The notes beneath the pieces were generated by a model. That model saw only the letters and a list, made by a program, of their open reading frames with translations, made no database searches and was not told the origin of the DNA. From positions 1-5,777 of the forward strand of contig DAOVMD010000223.1 of NCBI GenBank assembly GCA_030630935.1: DNA of 5,777 nt, written 5' to 3'. This stretch comes from Candidatus Mcinerneyibacteriota bacterium (lineage in GTDB: Bacteria > AUK180 > JAQVHJ01). The translations under genes and the position numbers were made by a program. Numbering within the stretch: position 1 is the first letter of the stretch; each line of letters starts with the position of its first letter. Below, piece after piece: positions 431 through 5,777 of the stretch.

Positions 431-441
431 TTTTCAAAATT

Positions 442-445
442 GGAG
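442..445 (+). promoter_or_regulatory. Ribosome binding site that fixes the cheC start
   Basis: GGAG lies six bases before the ATG at 452. An in-frame TTG at 440-442 would add four residues, but it overlaps this site and sits almost on the predicted transcription start, so it cannot be the main initiation codon. Confidence 0.75.
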
Positions 446-451
446 AATATT

Positions 452-1057
452 ATGGATTTGAATAATCTTACAAAGATTCAGCAATCAGCATTAAAAGAAA
501 TCGGTAATATTGGGGCAGGAAATGCAGCCTCGGCACTTTCCCAGATGATAGGGAGAAAGATAGAGATGACAGTTCCCGATATAATGTTAATTTCCACAGA
601 GAATATTGCAGAGACAATTAAGGGTAATGAGGTAGGGCTAGGAATATATACAAAGGTTTTAGGAGATATTAACGGAAAGATCCTGATGTTTTTTTTGAAG
701 GAGCACGCATTGCAATTAATTGATATTGTAATGGGACGTGAGGTGGGAACGAGTCAGATTATTGCAGGCATTGAGGAATCTGCTATTATGGAGGTGGGTA
801 ACATCCTTGCATCTTCATATCTTTCTGCAATAGGAGAATTTACCAAGTTAAGGCTCATGCCTTCAATTCCAAACCTTGCTTTAGGAACCATAAGTGAAAC
901 CGTAATATTTGTAAGTAAACAATTTCAGGAAGCTCTTGGAAATGCACTCTGGATTGAGACCGAATTCCTGGATTCCCCGAACCGATTATCCGGGAATTTT
1001 TATTTACTTCCAGATGACAAGGCTTTACAAATAATCTTAGGGGCATTAAATCTTTAG
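452..1057 (+). CDS. cheC: CheC-family CheY-P phosphatase
   Basis: This 201-residue protein is a CheC phosphatase, which removes phosphate from CheY-type response regulators in the cytoplasm and in many species partners the receptor deamidase CheD. Both halves of the pseudo-symmetric fold carry the family signature S/D-x3-E-x2-N-x22-P: S12, E16, N19 and P42 in the first half; S110, E114, N117 and P140 in the second. Two intact active sites and the length separate it from CheX (one site) and from FliM/FliN rotor proteins. The ATG at 452 is chosen because GGAG precedes it by six bases and an upstream TTG lies too close to the transcription start. It is the first gene after a very strong promoter. 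No cheD, cheY, cheA or flagellar gene is in the window, so its target could be chemotaxis CheY or another receiver protein. Family assignment is secure; the target is unknown. Confidence 0.93.
   Translation: MDLNNLTKIQQSALKEIGNIGAGNAASALSQMIGRKIEMTVPDIMLISTENIAETIKGNEVGLGIYTKVLGDINGKILMFFLKEHALQLIDIVMGREVGTSQIIAGIEESAIMEVGNILASSYLSAIGEFTKLRLMPSIPNLALGTISETVIFVSKQFQEALGNALWIETEFLDSPNRLSGNFYLLPDDKALQIILGALNL
970..1001 (+). terminator. Terminator-like hairpin inside the end of cheC (weak)
   Basis: ATTCCC (972-977) pairs with GGGAAT (992-997). One bulged C (978) lets G979 pair with C991, and two G-T pairs could extend the base. Five T residues (997-1001), an A and three more T follow at once, which is the shape of an intrinsic terminator. 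It lies within the coding region about 55 nt before the stop codon, so it may be chance or may lower transcription of the downstream genes. No test is possible from sequence alone. Confidence 0.25.
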
Positions 1058-1887: not shown

Positions 1888-2703
1888 ATGAATCAGTTTA
1901 ATAGACAACCTGTTGTTGCCGGAACCTTTTATCCTGGTTCCGAAAAATTAGTTGAGAAACAACTCACTGAATTTCTGTCAAGTGATAAAAATTTCAGCAA
2001 TGCTTTTGGAGCCGTGGTCCCGCATGCCGGGTGGGCTTGTTCAGGCGAAGCGGCAGGAAAGGTTTTCTCTTCCCTGGAACCTTGTGATACATATATAATA
2101 ATAGGACCAAATCATAACGGGATAGGTGCGGGGATTTCAATCATGACTGAAGGGGAGTGGATTCTTCCTAATGGAAATATCAAGATCGACTCGGAATTAT
2201 CAAAAGAAATTTTAAATAATTCAAATACCGTAATGGATGACCCGTCTTCACATTCGAGAGAGCACTCAATTGAAGTTCAATTACCATTTATAATTAAGCA
2301 GAATCCCGCGGCAAAGTTCGTACCTATTTCAATGTTTAATTATTCTTTGAAATCAATTTACAATATTGCCGATGCAATTGTAAAAGCCCTGGAAAATTAT
2401 AAAGAGAAAACTTTAATTATTGCATCAAGTGACATGTCTCATTATGAAACTGCGGATTTTGCACGAGCTCAAGATTTTAAGGCAATTAATAAAATACTCG
2501 AATTAAATACGAAAGGCTTGAATGAAATAGTGAACAATGAACAAATTACTATGTGCGGGCTTGGTCCGGTTTCGGTAGTAATTGAAGTAACAAAAAAAAT
2601 AGGCGCAAAAAAAGGAGAACTAATAATTTATACTAATTCAGGAGAAACCTGTGCTCCAGGAAGTCCCGAAGTAGTTGGGTATGCCGGAATAGTATTTATT
2701 TAA
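1888..2703 (+). CDS. MEMO1-family protein (AmmeMemoRadiSam system protein B)
   Basis: This 271-residue protein is a full-length member of the MEMO1 family, related in fold to LigB-type class III extradiol dioxygenases. In bacteria and archaea it is often encoded with an AMMECR1 protein and a radical SAM enzyme, in a system of unclear function. Motifs in order are PVVAGTFYP (8-16), VPHAGW (44-49), GPNHNG (73-78), REHSIEVQLPF (124-134), SSDMSHYE (180-187) and MCGLGP (222-227). H46, H76 and C223 correspond to the metal-site residues H49, H81 and C244 of human MEMO1, so metal or redox chemistry is possible. Neither usual partner is in the window; its neighbours are the glycosyltransferase (27 nt before) and RNase G (5 nt after). 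The ATG start has no clear ribosome binding site, but PVVAGTFYP lies at the expected distance from it. Family assignment is very secure; function is not known. Confidence 0.93.
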   Translation: MNQFNRQPVVAGTFYPGSEKLVEKQLTEFLSSDKNFSNAFGAVVPHAGWACSGEAAGKVFSSLEPCDTYIIIGPNHNGIGAGISIMTEGEWILPNGNIKIDSELSKEILNNSNTVMDDPSSHSREHSIEVQLPFIIKQNPAAKFVPISMFNYSLKSIYNIADAIVKALENYKEKTLIIASSDMSHYETADFARAQDFKAINKILELNTKGLNEIVNNEQITMCGLGPVSVVIEVTKKIGAKKGELIIYTNSGETCAPGSPEVVGYAGIVFI

Positions 2704-2708
2704 AAATT

Positions 2709-4226
2709 ATGAAAAAGCAAATATTAATTAATAACTTCTTTAATGAAACCAGGGTTGCAATCTTAGAAGATTCTAACCTGGTCGAATTAAATATTGAAAG
2801 AGAATCAGCAAAACATATTTATGGAAATATCTATAAGGGTCGGGTTGTTAACATCCTCCCTGCAATGCAGGCGGCTTTTATTAATATTGGTCTTGAAAAG
2901 AATGCATTCCTACATGTTTCGGATGCTTCTCATAGCCTGAATTATTATAAAGATCTCTTTCAATTTACTGAAAATGGTAATAATGACACACCGAATTACT
3001 ACACGCAGCATTCGATTGAGGATCTTCTGAAGCGTGGTCAGGAACTGTTGGTTCAGGTAAAAAAGGAGACGATAAGTGACAAGGGAGCAAAAGTCACAAC
3101 GAATATTACACTCCCGGGTGGTGTGGTTGTTTATCTCCCCACGTTTAATCATGTTGGAATTTCAAAGAGAATAGTTGACAACAAGCAAAGGCAACGTTTA
3201 AAGAAGATGATTTCGCATGTTAAGAAAAATCAGGAAGGTTTCATTATTCGAACCAGGTCTCAAAACACAAAGAAACAGGAGCTTCTCAGAGAGATTAATT
3301 TCCTGCGTAATCTTTGGGGTAAAATAAAGAAGCGTAATGAGCATTTACCTGCACCCGCATTAATCTATGAAGATCCAGGTATGATTTACCGTGTAGTAAG
3401 AGACCTGATAACCCCGGATACATTTAAAGTATGGATTGATGATAAAGAGAAATTTTATAAGTTACAAACCTTTATTAAGGATTTCTTCCCAAAACTAAAG
3501 AATAGAATTCAACTCTATAATAACCCTGTACCATTGTTTCAATACTTTAAGATTGAAGGTCAAATTGAGGAAGTCTTAAAGAATAAGGTTAAGATGAAAT
3601 CGGGAGCTGAATTAGTTTTTGAACAGACAGAAAGCATGACTACGATTGATATTAACTCAGGTCGATTCTCAAAAGCAACAAATTTTGAAATGTTTGCTTT
3701 GAAAATTAATATGGAAGCGGCAAAAGAGATTCCAAAACAGCTTCGCCTAAGGGATATTGGGGGAATTATTATAATTGATTTTATTGATATGTCAAGGACT
3801 GAGAATAAAAAGAAGGTAGTCAAAACCTTACAAGTAGAATTTAAAAAAGATAAAACATTTACAAAAGTATATTCATTCTCACCGCTTGGACTGGTTGAAA
3901 TGATCAGGACAAGAAGAAAAGAAAGTTTATTAAAAAATCTCTACACAACCTGCCCTACCTGCAATGGAGAGGGTGATATTCCTTCATCGCAAACGATGAC
4001 CTTAAAGATACTAAGGAAGTTAAAGACAATCTGCATAAGTTCGAGAGATAAAAACATAATGGTAAAACTCAACCCGTTCACATTGAAACTGATTGAAAAA
4101 GAGGATGAACTGAAGCCTGAGCTGAGTATCCTGGAAGATAAATACAAAAAATCCATTAGTTTAATTGCAGGGGACGAAGTTTCCTTTGGGGAGATCCTGG
4201 TAGTATCGTATAAGCACATCGTATAA
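2709..4226 (+). CDS. rng: Ribonuclease G (RNase E/G family endoribonuclease)
   Basis: This 505-residue protein is a single-strand-specific endoribonuclease of the RNase E/G family, acting in the cytoplasm in rRNA maturation and mRNA turnover. An N-terminal S1-type RNA-binding domain (about 38-130: GNIYKGRVVNILPAMQAAF, later AFLHVSDA) carries an acidic, Asn-rich insertion near 74-104. The catalytic aspartates are D314 in TIDINSG and D357 in IIIIDFIDM. Their 43-residue spacing equals that of D303 and D346 in E. coli RNase E. The zinc-link cysteines are C415 and C418 in CPTCNGEG, 58 residues after D357, as in RNase E. There is no long C-terminal degradosome scaffold, and the length is close to E. 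coli RNase G (489), hence Rng rather than Rne. It starts 5 nt after the MEMO1 gene, which implies translational coupling. Its TAA stop is in the same frame as the next gene. Confidence 0.95.
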   Translation: MKKQILINNFFNETRVAILEDSNLVELNIERESAKHIYGNIYKGRVVNILPAMQAAFINIGLEKNAFLHVSDASHSLNYYKDLFQFTENGNNDTPNYYTQHSIEDLLKRGQELLVQVKKETISDKGAKVTTNITLPGGVVVYLPTFNHVGISKRIVDNKQRQRLKKMISHVKKNQEGFIIRTRSQNTKKQELLREINFLRNLWGKIKKRNEHLPAPALIYEDPGMIYRVVRDLITPDTFKVWIDDKEKFYKLQTFIKDFFPKLKNRIQLYNNPVPLFQYFKIEGQIEEVLKNKVKMKSGAELVFEQTESMTTIDINSGRFSKATNFEMFALKINMEAAKEIPKQLRLRDIGGIIIIDFIDMSRTENKKKVVKTLQVEFKKDKTFTKVYSFSPLGLVEMIRTRRKESLLKNLYTTCPTCNGEGDIPSSQTMTLKILRKLKTICISSRDKNIMVKLNPFTLKLIEKEDELKPELSILEDKYKKSISLIAGDEVSFGEILVVSYKHIV

Positions 4227-4232
4227 TTTTGC

Positions 4233-4237
4233 AGGAG
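4233..4237 (+). promoter_or_regulatory. Ribosome binding site supporting a TTG start
   Basis: AGGAG lies seven bases before the TTG at 4245. It is the best Shine-Dalgarno in the window and makes the rare start codon credible. The first in-frame ATG (4275) would remove residues of the conserved N-terminal nuclease motif and has no such site before it. Confidence 0.75.
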
Positions 4238-4244
4238 AGTTAAA

Positions 4245-5777
4245 TTGTTTTATATTAGCCCATTTAAATTATCCATGTATTTTCAATGCCCTCTAAAATA
4301 CAGATTTCATTATCTTGATAAATTAGATAAGAGTTATCCAAAACCTGAAAATGATTATCTTATTCTTGGTAATATTGTTCATAGGACATTGAAGGAATTC
4401 TTTTTACAAAAAAGACACCGGTCACCGGAATATTTATTAGAACTGCTGAAGTATATTATTGATAATGAGAATAAAAAGAACTCGCAGGTAAAAGATGATG
4501 TAATTAAGACTGCTGAAGAATTAATTGGTAATTTTATTGAAAAGTTTGACTTGACCATAAATCCCGAGTTTCTTGAAGAGAACATCAATGTTAATATTCA
4601 GGACTTTAAGCTGCTCTGTAAAATTGATAGAATTGACCTGCTAAATAACGGGTACGGAATTATTGATTATAAAACAGGTCGAATTCAATTGACCCGAAAT
4701 GAACTGCAGAAAAACCTTCCAATCAAGTTATATTTCATTGGAGCAAAGCATGGACTTGGTTTAGAAATAGAGAAGTTAACTTTACTCTATCTCCATTCAC
4801 TTGAGGAAATATCAATTGGCCCAACTGCTTCAGAAATAAAAATTTTTGAGGAAGAGCTTATCGAACAGGTGAATATTATTAGGAATACGAAGTTGGAAGA
4901 TTTTATACCGAAAACAAATTCGTTTTGCGGATTTTGTGAATTTAAGTTATTCTGCTCTGAATTTAAAAATAAGAATGTACAATTTAATATTGATTCTAAA
5001 AAATCTGATTTTTTAAATAAGGTCAATATCAGTATCTCTGAATTAATAAAGATGGAGAGCTTAAAGAGATTACAGAAAAAAATCCCCGAAGTTTTTCGGG
5101 AGCTGACAGAATCTGACTGGTCAATTCTTTATTATGATTTTAAGAATAAAACTGAATTAATTATTCGAGATAAAAAGAATGATTCATTAAGGTTGCCGCC
5201 AAAGAATTTAATTATTAAAATTTCCAAACAAGCAATCACATCAGGGAAAATATTTAAATTTGATAACAAAAACTTTAGTGTTCTTAGTTTTCCATATTCA
5301 TCAGAAGATTTTCGATTTAATTCTAACCTTTTAATTCCTTTAAAACTGGACTTTCAGTTAAAAGAAGAGCTACAAATTATTAGCTACACTGCTATAAATC
5401 TGCTGAACCAATTGTTCCGTGAATATAAAAACTATGAGTCTAAGAAAGACGGGTTAACCGGATTATTCATGCAGAGATACTTCAAAGAAGAAGTTGAAAA
5501 GATGGCTCAAGCATCTGAAACTTTCAGTGTAATCCTATGTGATATCGATTTTTTTAAGAGAGTTAATGATAACCACGGTCATCTGTTTGGAGATTATATT
5601 TTACAATCTATCTCAGCAATAATTAAAGAAAACCTTCGCGAGATAGATTTCTGTGCACGGTATGGCGGGGAGGAATTTGGAATTATTCTACCTGGATTAG
5701 ATGAAGTGGATGCATTCTTTATTGCAGAGAGGATTAGAAAAAGAATTAAGCGTAAGAGTTTTAAAGTAAATAATTCA
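4245..5777 (+). CDS. PD-(D/E)XK Fe-S nuclease fused to GAF-like and GGDEF domains (3' end cut off)
   Basis: At least 511 residues are encoded without a stop; the gene runs off the window. Residues 1-240 resemble RecB/AddB/Cas4-type nucleases: an SxxxxYxxCP-type start (S10, Y12, C15), GNIVH with H46, D128 in KIDRID, and D141-Y-K143-T-G. The 13-residue spacing from D128 to D141 matches D1067-D1080 of E. coli RecB. C228-x2-C231-x5-C237 with C15 gives the four-cysteine iron-sulfur pattern of AddB and Cas4. Residues 262-397 look like a divergent GAF sensor domain ending in a long signalling helix. From D402 (DGLTGLFMQR) a GGDEF domain follows: D433, N441, D450, GGEEF 474-478, and an RxxD inhibitory site at 465-468. 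All match the PleD spacing, so it should make cyclic-di-GMP. The Gln usual four residues before Y163 is Pro159. It starts at TTG 4245, 18 nt after rng, with AGGAG. I know no characterised protein of this architecture. Confidence 0.88.
   Translation, partial: MFYISPFKLSMYFQCPLKYRFHYLDKLDKSYPKPENDYLILGNIVHRTLKEFFLQKRHRSPEYLLELLKYIIDNENKKNSQVKDDVIKTAEELIGNFIEKFDLTINPEFLEENINVNIQDFKLLCKIDRIDLLNNGYGIIDYKTGRIQLTRNELQKNLPIKLYFIGAKHGLGLEIEKLTLLYLHSLEEISIGPTASEIKIFEEELIEQVNIIRNTKLEDFIPKTNSFCGFCEFKLFCSEFKNKNVQFNIDSKKSDFLNKVNISISELIKMESLKRLQKKIPEVFRELTESDWSILYYDFKNKTELIIRDKKNDSLRLPPKNLIIKISKQAITSGKIFKFDNKNFSVLSFPYSSEDFRFNSNLLIPLKLDFQLKEELQIISYTAINLLNQLFREYKNYESKKDGLTGLFMQRYFKEEVEKMAQASETFSVILCDIDFFKRVNDNHGHLFGDYILQSISAIIKENLREIDFCARYGGEEFGIILPGLDEVDAFFIAERIRKRIKRKSFKVNNS
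5085..5100 (+). repeat. Short perfect hairpin within the nuclease-cyclase gene
   Basis: CCCGAA (5085-5090) pairs exactly with TTCGGG (5095-5100) around a GTTT loop. It lies at codons 281-286, near the start of the GAF-like region. No T-run follows, so it is not a terminator. It resembles the GC-rich palindromes upstream of the operon only in base composition and may be coincidental. Confidence 0.35.

Follow-up and report, generated by a model that had tools for sequence, protein, structure and literature searches.

A PD-(D/E)XK nuclease, a GAF-like fold and a GGDEF domain are joined in one protein encoded at the end of the window, that is, of the whole 5777-bp stretch of DNA analysed here, which is an entire contig (G000:C235) of a MAG assembly 80% complete. 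Computation revealed a fusion of three folds with intact, conserved active sites, under purifying selection and conserved throughout its class, whose genomes also encode PilZ and EAL partners. The best explanation, to which we assign a probability of roughly 0.45, is that the protein may be bifunctional, with a DNA-engaging Fe-S nuclease serving as the input of a diguanylate cyclase through the GAF fold and a helix, by a logic like that of DisA. The novelty lies in the combination, since each part belongs to a known family.

The fused gene and its distribution

A preliminary description of this DNA had claimed a stop-free single frame at positions 4245-5777, and translation confirmed it.

4245..5777, + strand: coding sequence of the PD-(D/E)XK nuclease-GAF-GGDEF fusion; open frame from a TTG start to the contig end, 511 codons present
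4233..4239, + strand: Shine-Dalgarno-like AGGAGAG, read from the sequence; AGGAG lies 7 nt from the TTG start

Because the contig ends inside the gene, the 3' part of the GGDEF domain is absent. Such a truncated gene on a short MAG contig could in principle reflect an assembly or frameshift artefact that joins two genes, and the preliminary description, which took the gene for a true fusion, had named this risk together with that of homologues that are always split. Neither is borne out. An orthologue was found in 7/7 sampled genomes of the class (G000-G006), and in G002, G003, G004 and G005 it is a complete single frame of 515-521 aa that holds nuclease and GGDEF together. The two halves in G001, which at first look split, flank a 10-N scaffold gap and are open up to it on both sides, so that the interruption is uninformative on the frame; in G006, the nuclease is followed by the middle part and then by the contig edge, in the order seen in the other orthologues. 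Three genomes of another phylum (G219, G386 and G389) carry the same domain order without interruption, in proteins of 586-588 aa, counted from the start that we selected. As independent genomes show the fusion in a single frame, the artefact reading, now practically out of the question, is rejected by the seven class genomes and the three of the other phylum.

When relatives were sought with the whole window protein, ordinary GGDEF proteins alone were retrieved, none of them fused. G219 was found by a profile of the nuclease plus the start of the middle part, and its protein then found G386 and G389. In a search of 386 genomes, scores of 439-463 bits set the fusions apart from the runner-up, a stand-alone nuclease with 192 bits; no fusion occurred outside the two lineages among the other ~380 genomes sampled.

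Purifying selection acts on both enzyme domains and on the linker, with dN/dS at about 0.1, a rough value: between G002 and G003 it was 0.13 for the nuclease, 0.12 for the middle part and 0.09 for GGDEF, estimates that rest on few substitutions. In a tree of the nucleases, the fused proteins fell into three groups, and a single clade was not rejected (p-AU 0.125). In a quick GGDEF tree, the GGDEF domains of f2, the other family of the class (G002-G006), had those of the window's family as their closest neighbours.

Nuclease, GAF-like and cyclase parts

Profiles and an AlphaFold2 model (25-row alignment; mean pLDDT 87.7, pTM 0.52) concur in predicting three folded parts in one chain: nuclease 1-240, GAF 245-400 and GGDEF 396-511. 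Since the pTM is just 0.52, the relative placement of the domains is uncertain. The domain calls of the preliminary description, a Cas4/AddB-like Fe-S nuclease, a GAF-like middle part and a diguanylate cyclase, thus find support in profiles, the predicted structure, orthologues and selection, and its motif positions proved correct for H46 (4380), D128 (4626), D141/K143 (4665/4671), Cys15/228/231/237 and GGEEF 474-478 (5664-5678).

4254..4958, + strand: PDDEXK_1 nuclease domain, residues 4-238; Pfam PF12705 at E 1.2e-21, and residues 1-240 of the model match the AdnA nuclease
4287..4289, + strand: putative Fe-S ligand Cys15, invariant in fused and non-fused relatives
4380..4382, + strand: predicted catalytic His46, invariant in 10/10 fused proteins
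4626..4628, + strand: predicted catalytic Asp128 in KIDR, invariant in 10/10 fused proteins
4665..4673, + strand: predicted catalytic Asp141-x-Lys143 in DYK, invariant in 10/10 fused proteins
4719..4733, + strand: position of the QxxxY motif, Pro159...Tyr163; Gln in 8/10 fused proteins
4926..4955, + strand: putative Fe-S ligands Cys228, Cys231 and Cys237, invariant in 10/10 fused proteins

The preliminary description could have failed on the lack of an N-terminal PD-(D/E)XK fold, but that fold is present: by structural alignment, residues 1-240 of the model match the AdnA nuclease domain at Z 20.5 (225 aligned), ACE1 at Z 18.6 and AddB at Z 16.1. Together with the profile match and the H...D...D-x-K site, the fold places the domain in the PDDEXK_1 / RecB-AddB-AdnA-Cas4 superfamily. 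The nuclease domains of AdnA and AddB, from the repair helicase-nucleases AdnAB and AddAB, are the closest solved folds and share H-D-D-K; in contrast to those enzymes, the fusion has no helicase and is joined to GAF and GGDEF. Cas4 and the Argonaute-associated Cas4 family protein ACE1 (9iab, 9iac) are stand-alone nucleases that resemble this domain in size and fold.

All eight key residues (C15, H46, D128, D141, K143, C228, C231 and C237) are invariant across the ten fused proteins. The invariant columns of the nuclease number 21/240, and the hypergeometric probability that all eight fall among them is ~8e-10, a test that ignores the superfamily-wide conservation of such residues. Non-fused relatives (n=62) have replaced H46 in 10 cases, D128 in 7 and D141 in 10, and retention in the fused proteins is therefore informative. 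At the QxxxY motif, the window and G001 keep Y163 and have Pro (P159) in place of the Gln that the other eight have, a change that might weaken nuclease activity.

A PDDEXK-PDDEXK tandem protein with a degenerate first copy, overlapping the start of recJ, was noticed in G006 (L126:7858-9303 and 9300-10919), and RecJ was confirmed there by Pfam. Similar tandem proteins occur in other class genomes (L014, L016, L017, L028 and L029). That a PDDEXK_1 paralogue adjoins recJ suggests that the family takes part in DNA processing in G006.

The middle part was assigned from the model as follows.

4977..5435, + strand: GAF fold, residues 245-397; model matches GAF domains 3p01 and 3cit
5361..5441, + strand: long helix 373-399 joining GAF and GGDEF, in the position of a signalling helix; DSSP on the AF2 model

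Structural alignment of residues 245-397 gave Z 15.1 to 3p01 (149 aligned) and Z 13.9 to 3cit. The basis of the GAF call is the full-length model; folded alone without an alignment, the middle part gave a model of no use (pLDDT 41). A Pfam profile scan of the window protein gave no match, GAF included, between PDDEXK_1 and GGDEF. The call is independently supported by the other-phylum orthologues (G219, G386 and G389), which have Pfam GAF/GAF_2 matches at the equivalent place (E 2e-4 to 3e-3, under the curated cut-offs). The length of linker plus GAF differs greatly between lineages, and in f2 the middle part has ~110-120 residues with a much shortened GAF core; a GAF ligand is therefore unlikely as the signal common to all, and a classic GAF relay is not shared by all members.

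5439..5777, + strand: GGDEF diguanylate cyclase domain, residues 399-511 (cut by the contig end); Pfam PF00990 at E 5.9e-29, match at 401-509
5637..5648, + strand: RxxD inhibitory-site motif, R465-D468, read from the sequence; five residues ahead of GGEEF
5664..5678, + strand: GGEEF active-site motif, residues 474-478; unaltered in all fused proteins that cover it

Residues 396-511 of the model adopt the GGDEF fold, with Z 16.3 to 3ign by structural alignment. The metal/substrate motif DxDxFKxxND is present as DIDFFKRVND and is conserved among the fused proteins. The GG(D/E)EF and DxDxFKxxND motifs assign the domain to the GGDEF diguanylate cyclases, and synthesis of cyclic-di-GMP is predicted. 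The window, G001, G219, G386 and G389 retain RxxD, which f2 has lost. GAF, helix and GGEEF with RxxD are shared with GAF-GGDEF diguanylate cyclases (DgcA-type, PleD-like GGDEF), and residues 258-582 of the G219 protein can be aligned over the greater part of the DgcA model, with a score far under its cut-off. Unlike those cyclases, the fusion has a predicted Fe-S nuclease in the N-terminal input position.

The nuclease as a candidate input of the cyclase

Input-controlled diguanylate cyclases usually have the order sensor, GAF, helix and GGDEF. To our knowledge, no input has been identified for most diguanylate cyclases. Because the nuclease occupies the sensor position, DNA engagement or the state of the Fe-S cluster appears to be the likeliest input, and we infer that both enzymes are active, that the cluster is bound, and that the nuclease is the input with DNA as its ligand. 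An N-terminal 4Fe-4S PD-(D/E)XK nuclease of the AdnA/AddB/Cas4 type would thus be joined through GAF and a signalling helix to GGDEF. Were the nuclease to engage or trim DNA ends or single-stranded DNA, or to lose its Fe-S cluster, dimer pairing might be altered through GAF and the helix, by which synthesis of cyclic-di-GMP would be raised or lowered; PilZ and EAL proteins in the cell would read and remove the product. Several findings weigh against this reading: the Pro at QxxxY in the window and G001, the strongly shortened GAF core in G002-G006, the lack of SOS, repair or defence genes beside the fusion, and a pTM that leaves the placement of the domains uncertain. A more specific version, a conserved DNA-integrity checkpoint in which the Fe-S nuclease is active, acts on DNA ends or detects them, and thereby directly controls how fast the fused cyclase works, is put forward only tentatively. 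If true, the protein would be a cyclic-di-GMP counterpart of DisA whose sensor is itself a repair-type nuclease.

Three other arrangements of the same parts have to be weighed against DNA as the input. Simple tethering, in which shared expression or location is gained with little direct coupling of the two enzymes, is a possible but unlikely reading: the highly variable length of linker and GAF, and a nuclease tree that does not force a single fusion origin, agree with it, whereas a domain order kept in 10/10 fused proteins, purifying selection on the middle part (G002 versus G003) and the absence of any split or domain loss seen in the class argue for more than mere joining. It is rather improbable that the Fe-S cluster, and not DNA, is the input, with the nuclease fold sensing redox state, NO or oxygen for the cyclase and cutting being secondary. 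Fe-S clusters are common redox sensors, and all four cysteines are invariant in the fused proteins; however, the Mg/DNA site (H46, D128, D141 and K143), needless for a pure redox sensor, is equally invariant, and the cysteines are also kept in most stand-alone and tandem relatives that have no cyclase. Signalling might also run in reverse, so that the nuclease is activated or shut down by cyclic-di-GMP that GGDEF makes or binds at its RxxD site, but we hold the chances of this to be similarly low. In proteins with a C-terminal GGDEF domain, it is usually the N-terminal part that exerts control, which speaks against the reverse direction. A precedent for a DNase controlled by cyclic-di-GMP is HipH of E. 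coli, which is held down by it (PMC11452175). RxxD is kept in the window, in G001 and in the other phylum, yet G002-G005 have lost it and kept both enzymes.

DisA, a DNA-integrity scanning diadenylate cyclase that makes cyclic-di-AMP, resembles the fusion in logic only, in that a DNA-engaging part is joined to a cyclic-dinucleotide synthase; the DNA-binding part of DisA is unrelated and has no nuclease. The likeness to Cas10 of type III CRISPR is again one of logic only, in that a single protein carries a nuclease together with a GGDEF-like cyclase. Cas10, however, combines an HD nuclease with a Palm cyclase, makes cyclic oligoadenylate and works in an RNA-guided complex, whereas the fusion has no CRISPR context. 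The GGDEF of Cas10 is divergent (PMC10910872). No diguanylate cyclase known to us combines a repair-type nuclease and cyclic-di-GMP synthesis in one chain. The preliminary description likewise knew of no such system, in agreement with our search, confined to open-access papers, in which no PD-(D/E)XK-GGDEF fusion was found. As the fusion is present in every sampled class genome, recurs in a second phylum and keeps its catalytic residues, gating of cyclic-di-GMP by DNA or Fe-S is directly testable. The joining of the two enzymes in one conserved gene suggests that bacteria of this little-known lineage may link DNA events to a cell-wide lifestyle signal.

Gene neighbourhood and cyclic-di-GMP partners

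440..1057, + strand: CheC-like gene, conserved neighbour; Pfam CheC at E 5e-24; also upstream in G002, G003, G005 and G006 by sequence
1888..2703, + strand: MEMO / AmmeMemoRadiSam system B gene, conserved neighbour; TIGR04336 at E 2e-83; adjoins the fusion in class genomes
2709..4226, + strand: RNase G/E gene directly upstream of the fusion, in G000 and G001 only; TIGR00757 at E 9e-139

Genes are ordered CheC-like, GT2, MEMO, RNase G and fusion in the window; MEMO, RNase G, fusion and GidA/TrmFO-like in G001; and PFK, SurA-like, CheC-like, MEMO, fusion and PPIase in f2, where CheC and MEMO were assigned by sequence likeness to the window genes. In G004, MEMO is immediately upstream of the fusion. 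The fusion of the other phylum lies among genes for a polysaccharide deacetylase, YceG and TldD/PmbA. The kept position beside MEMO suggests one origin within the class; we know of no functional link between the MEMO gene and the fusion. RNase G sits between MEMO and the fusion solely in the window's family. The CheC-like phosphatase gene is near the fusion in both class families, and the window shows no chemotaxis cluster.

Judged by sequence, the neighbours of the fusion are housekeeping genes, and no cas, SOS, repair or defence genes were found beside it in the window or among selected neighbours in G001, G002 and G389. The preliminary description had also raised a role in CRISPR adaptation or phage defence, which found no support. 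A phage-defence or CRISPR-linked effector would account for the weak Cas4 and DruK profile matches and for the close structural match to the Cas4-family ACE1, but this is very improbable: the Cas4 scores stay below the curated cut-offs (36.9 bits versus 65 for TIGR00372, 17.4 versus 22.7 for PF01930), the neighbours are core genes (PFK, PPIase, CheC-like, MEMO, RNase G, GidA/TrmFO-like, YceG and TldD), the gene is in every class genome and not patchy, and no fused copy was found in the phage, plasmid and viral-contig collections searched. Identity with Cas4 of CRISPR adaptation, from which the fusion differs in the lack of nearby cas genes and in its sub-cut-off profiles, was rejected on those profiles and the core-gene neighbourhood.

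PilZ and EAL domains were found in 7/7 class genomes, so that a cyclic-di-GMP circuit exists in them. A separate, unusual 394-aa frame in the window's genome (G000:C212:12885-13700) apparently combines GGDEF with PilZ and has likely counterparts in G001-G004.
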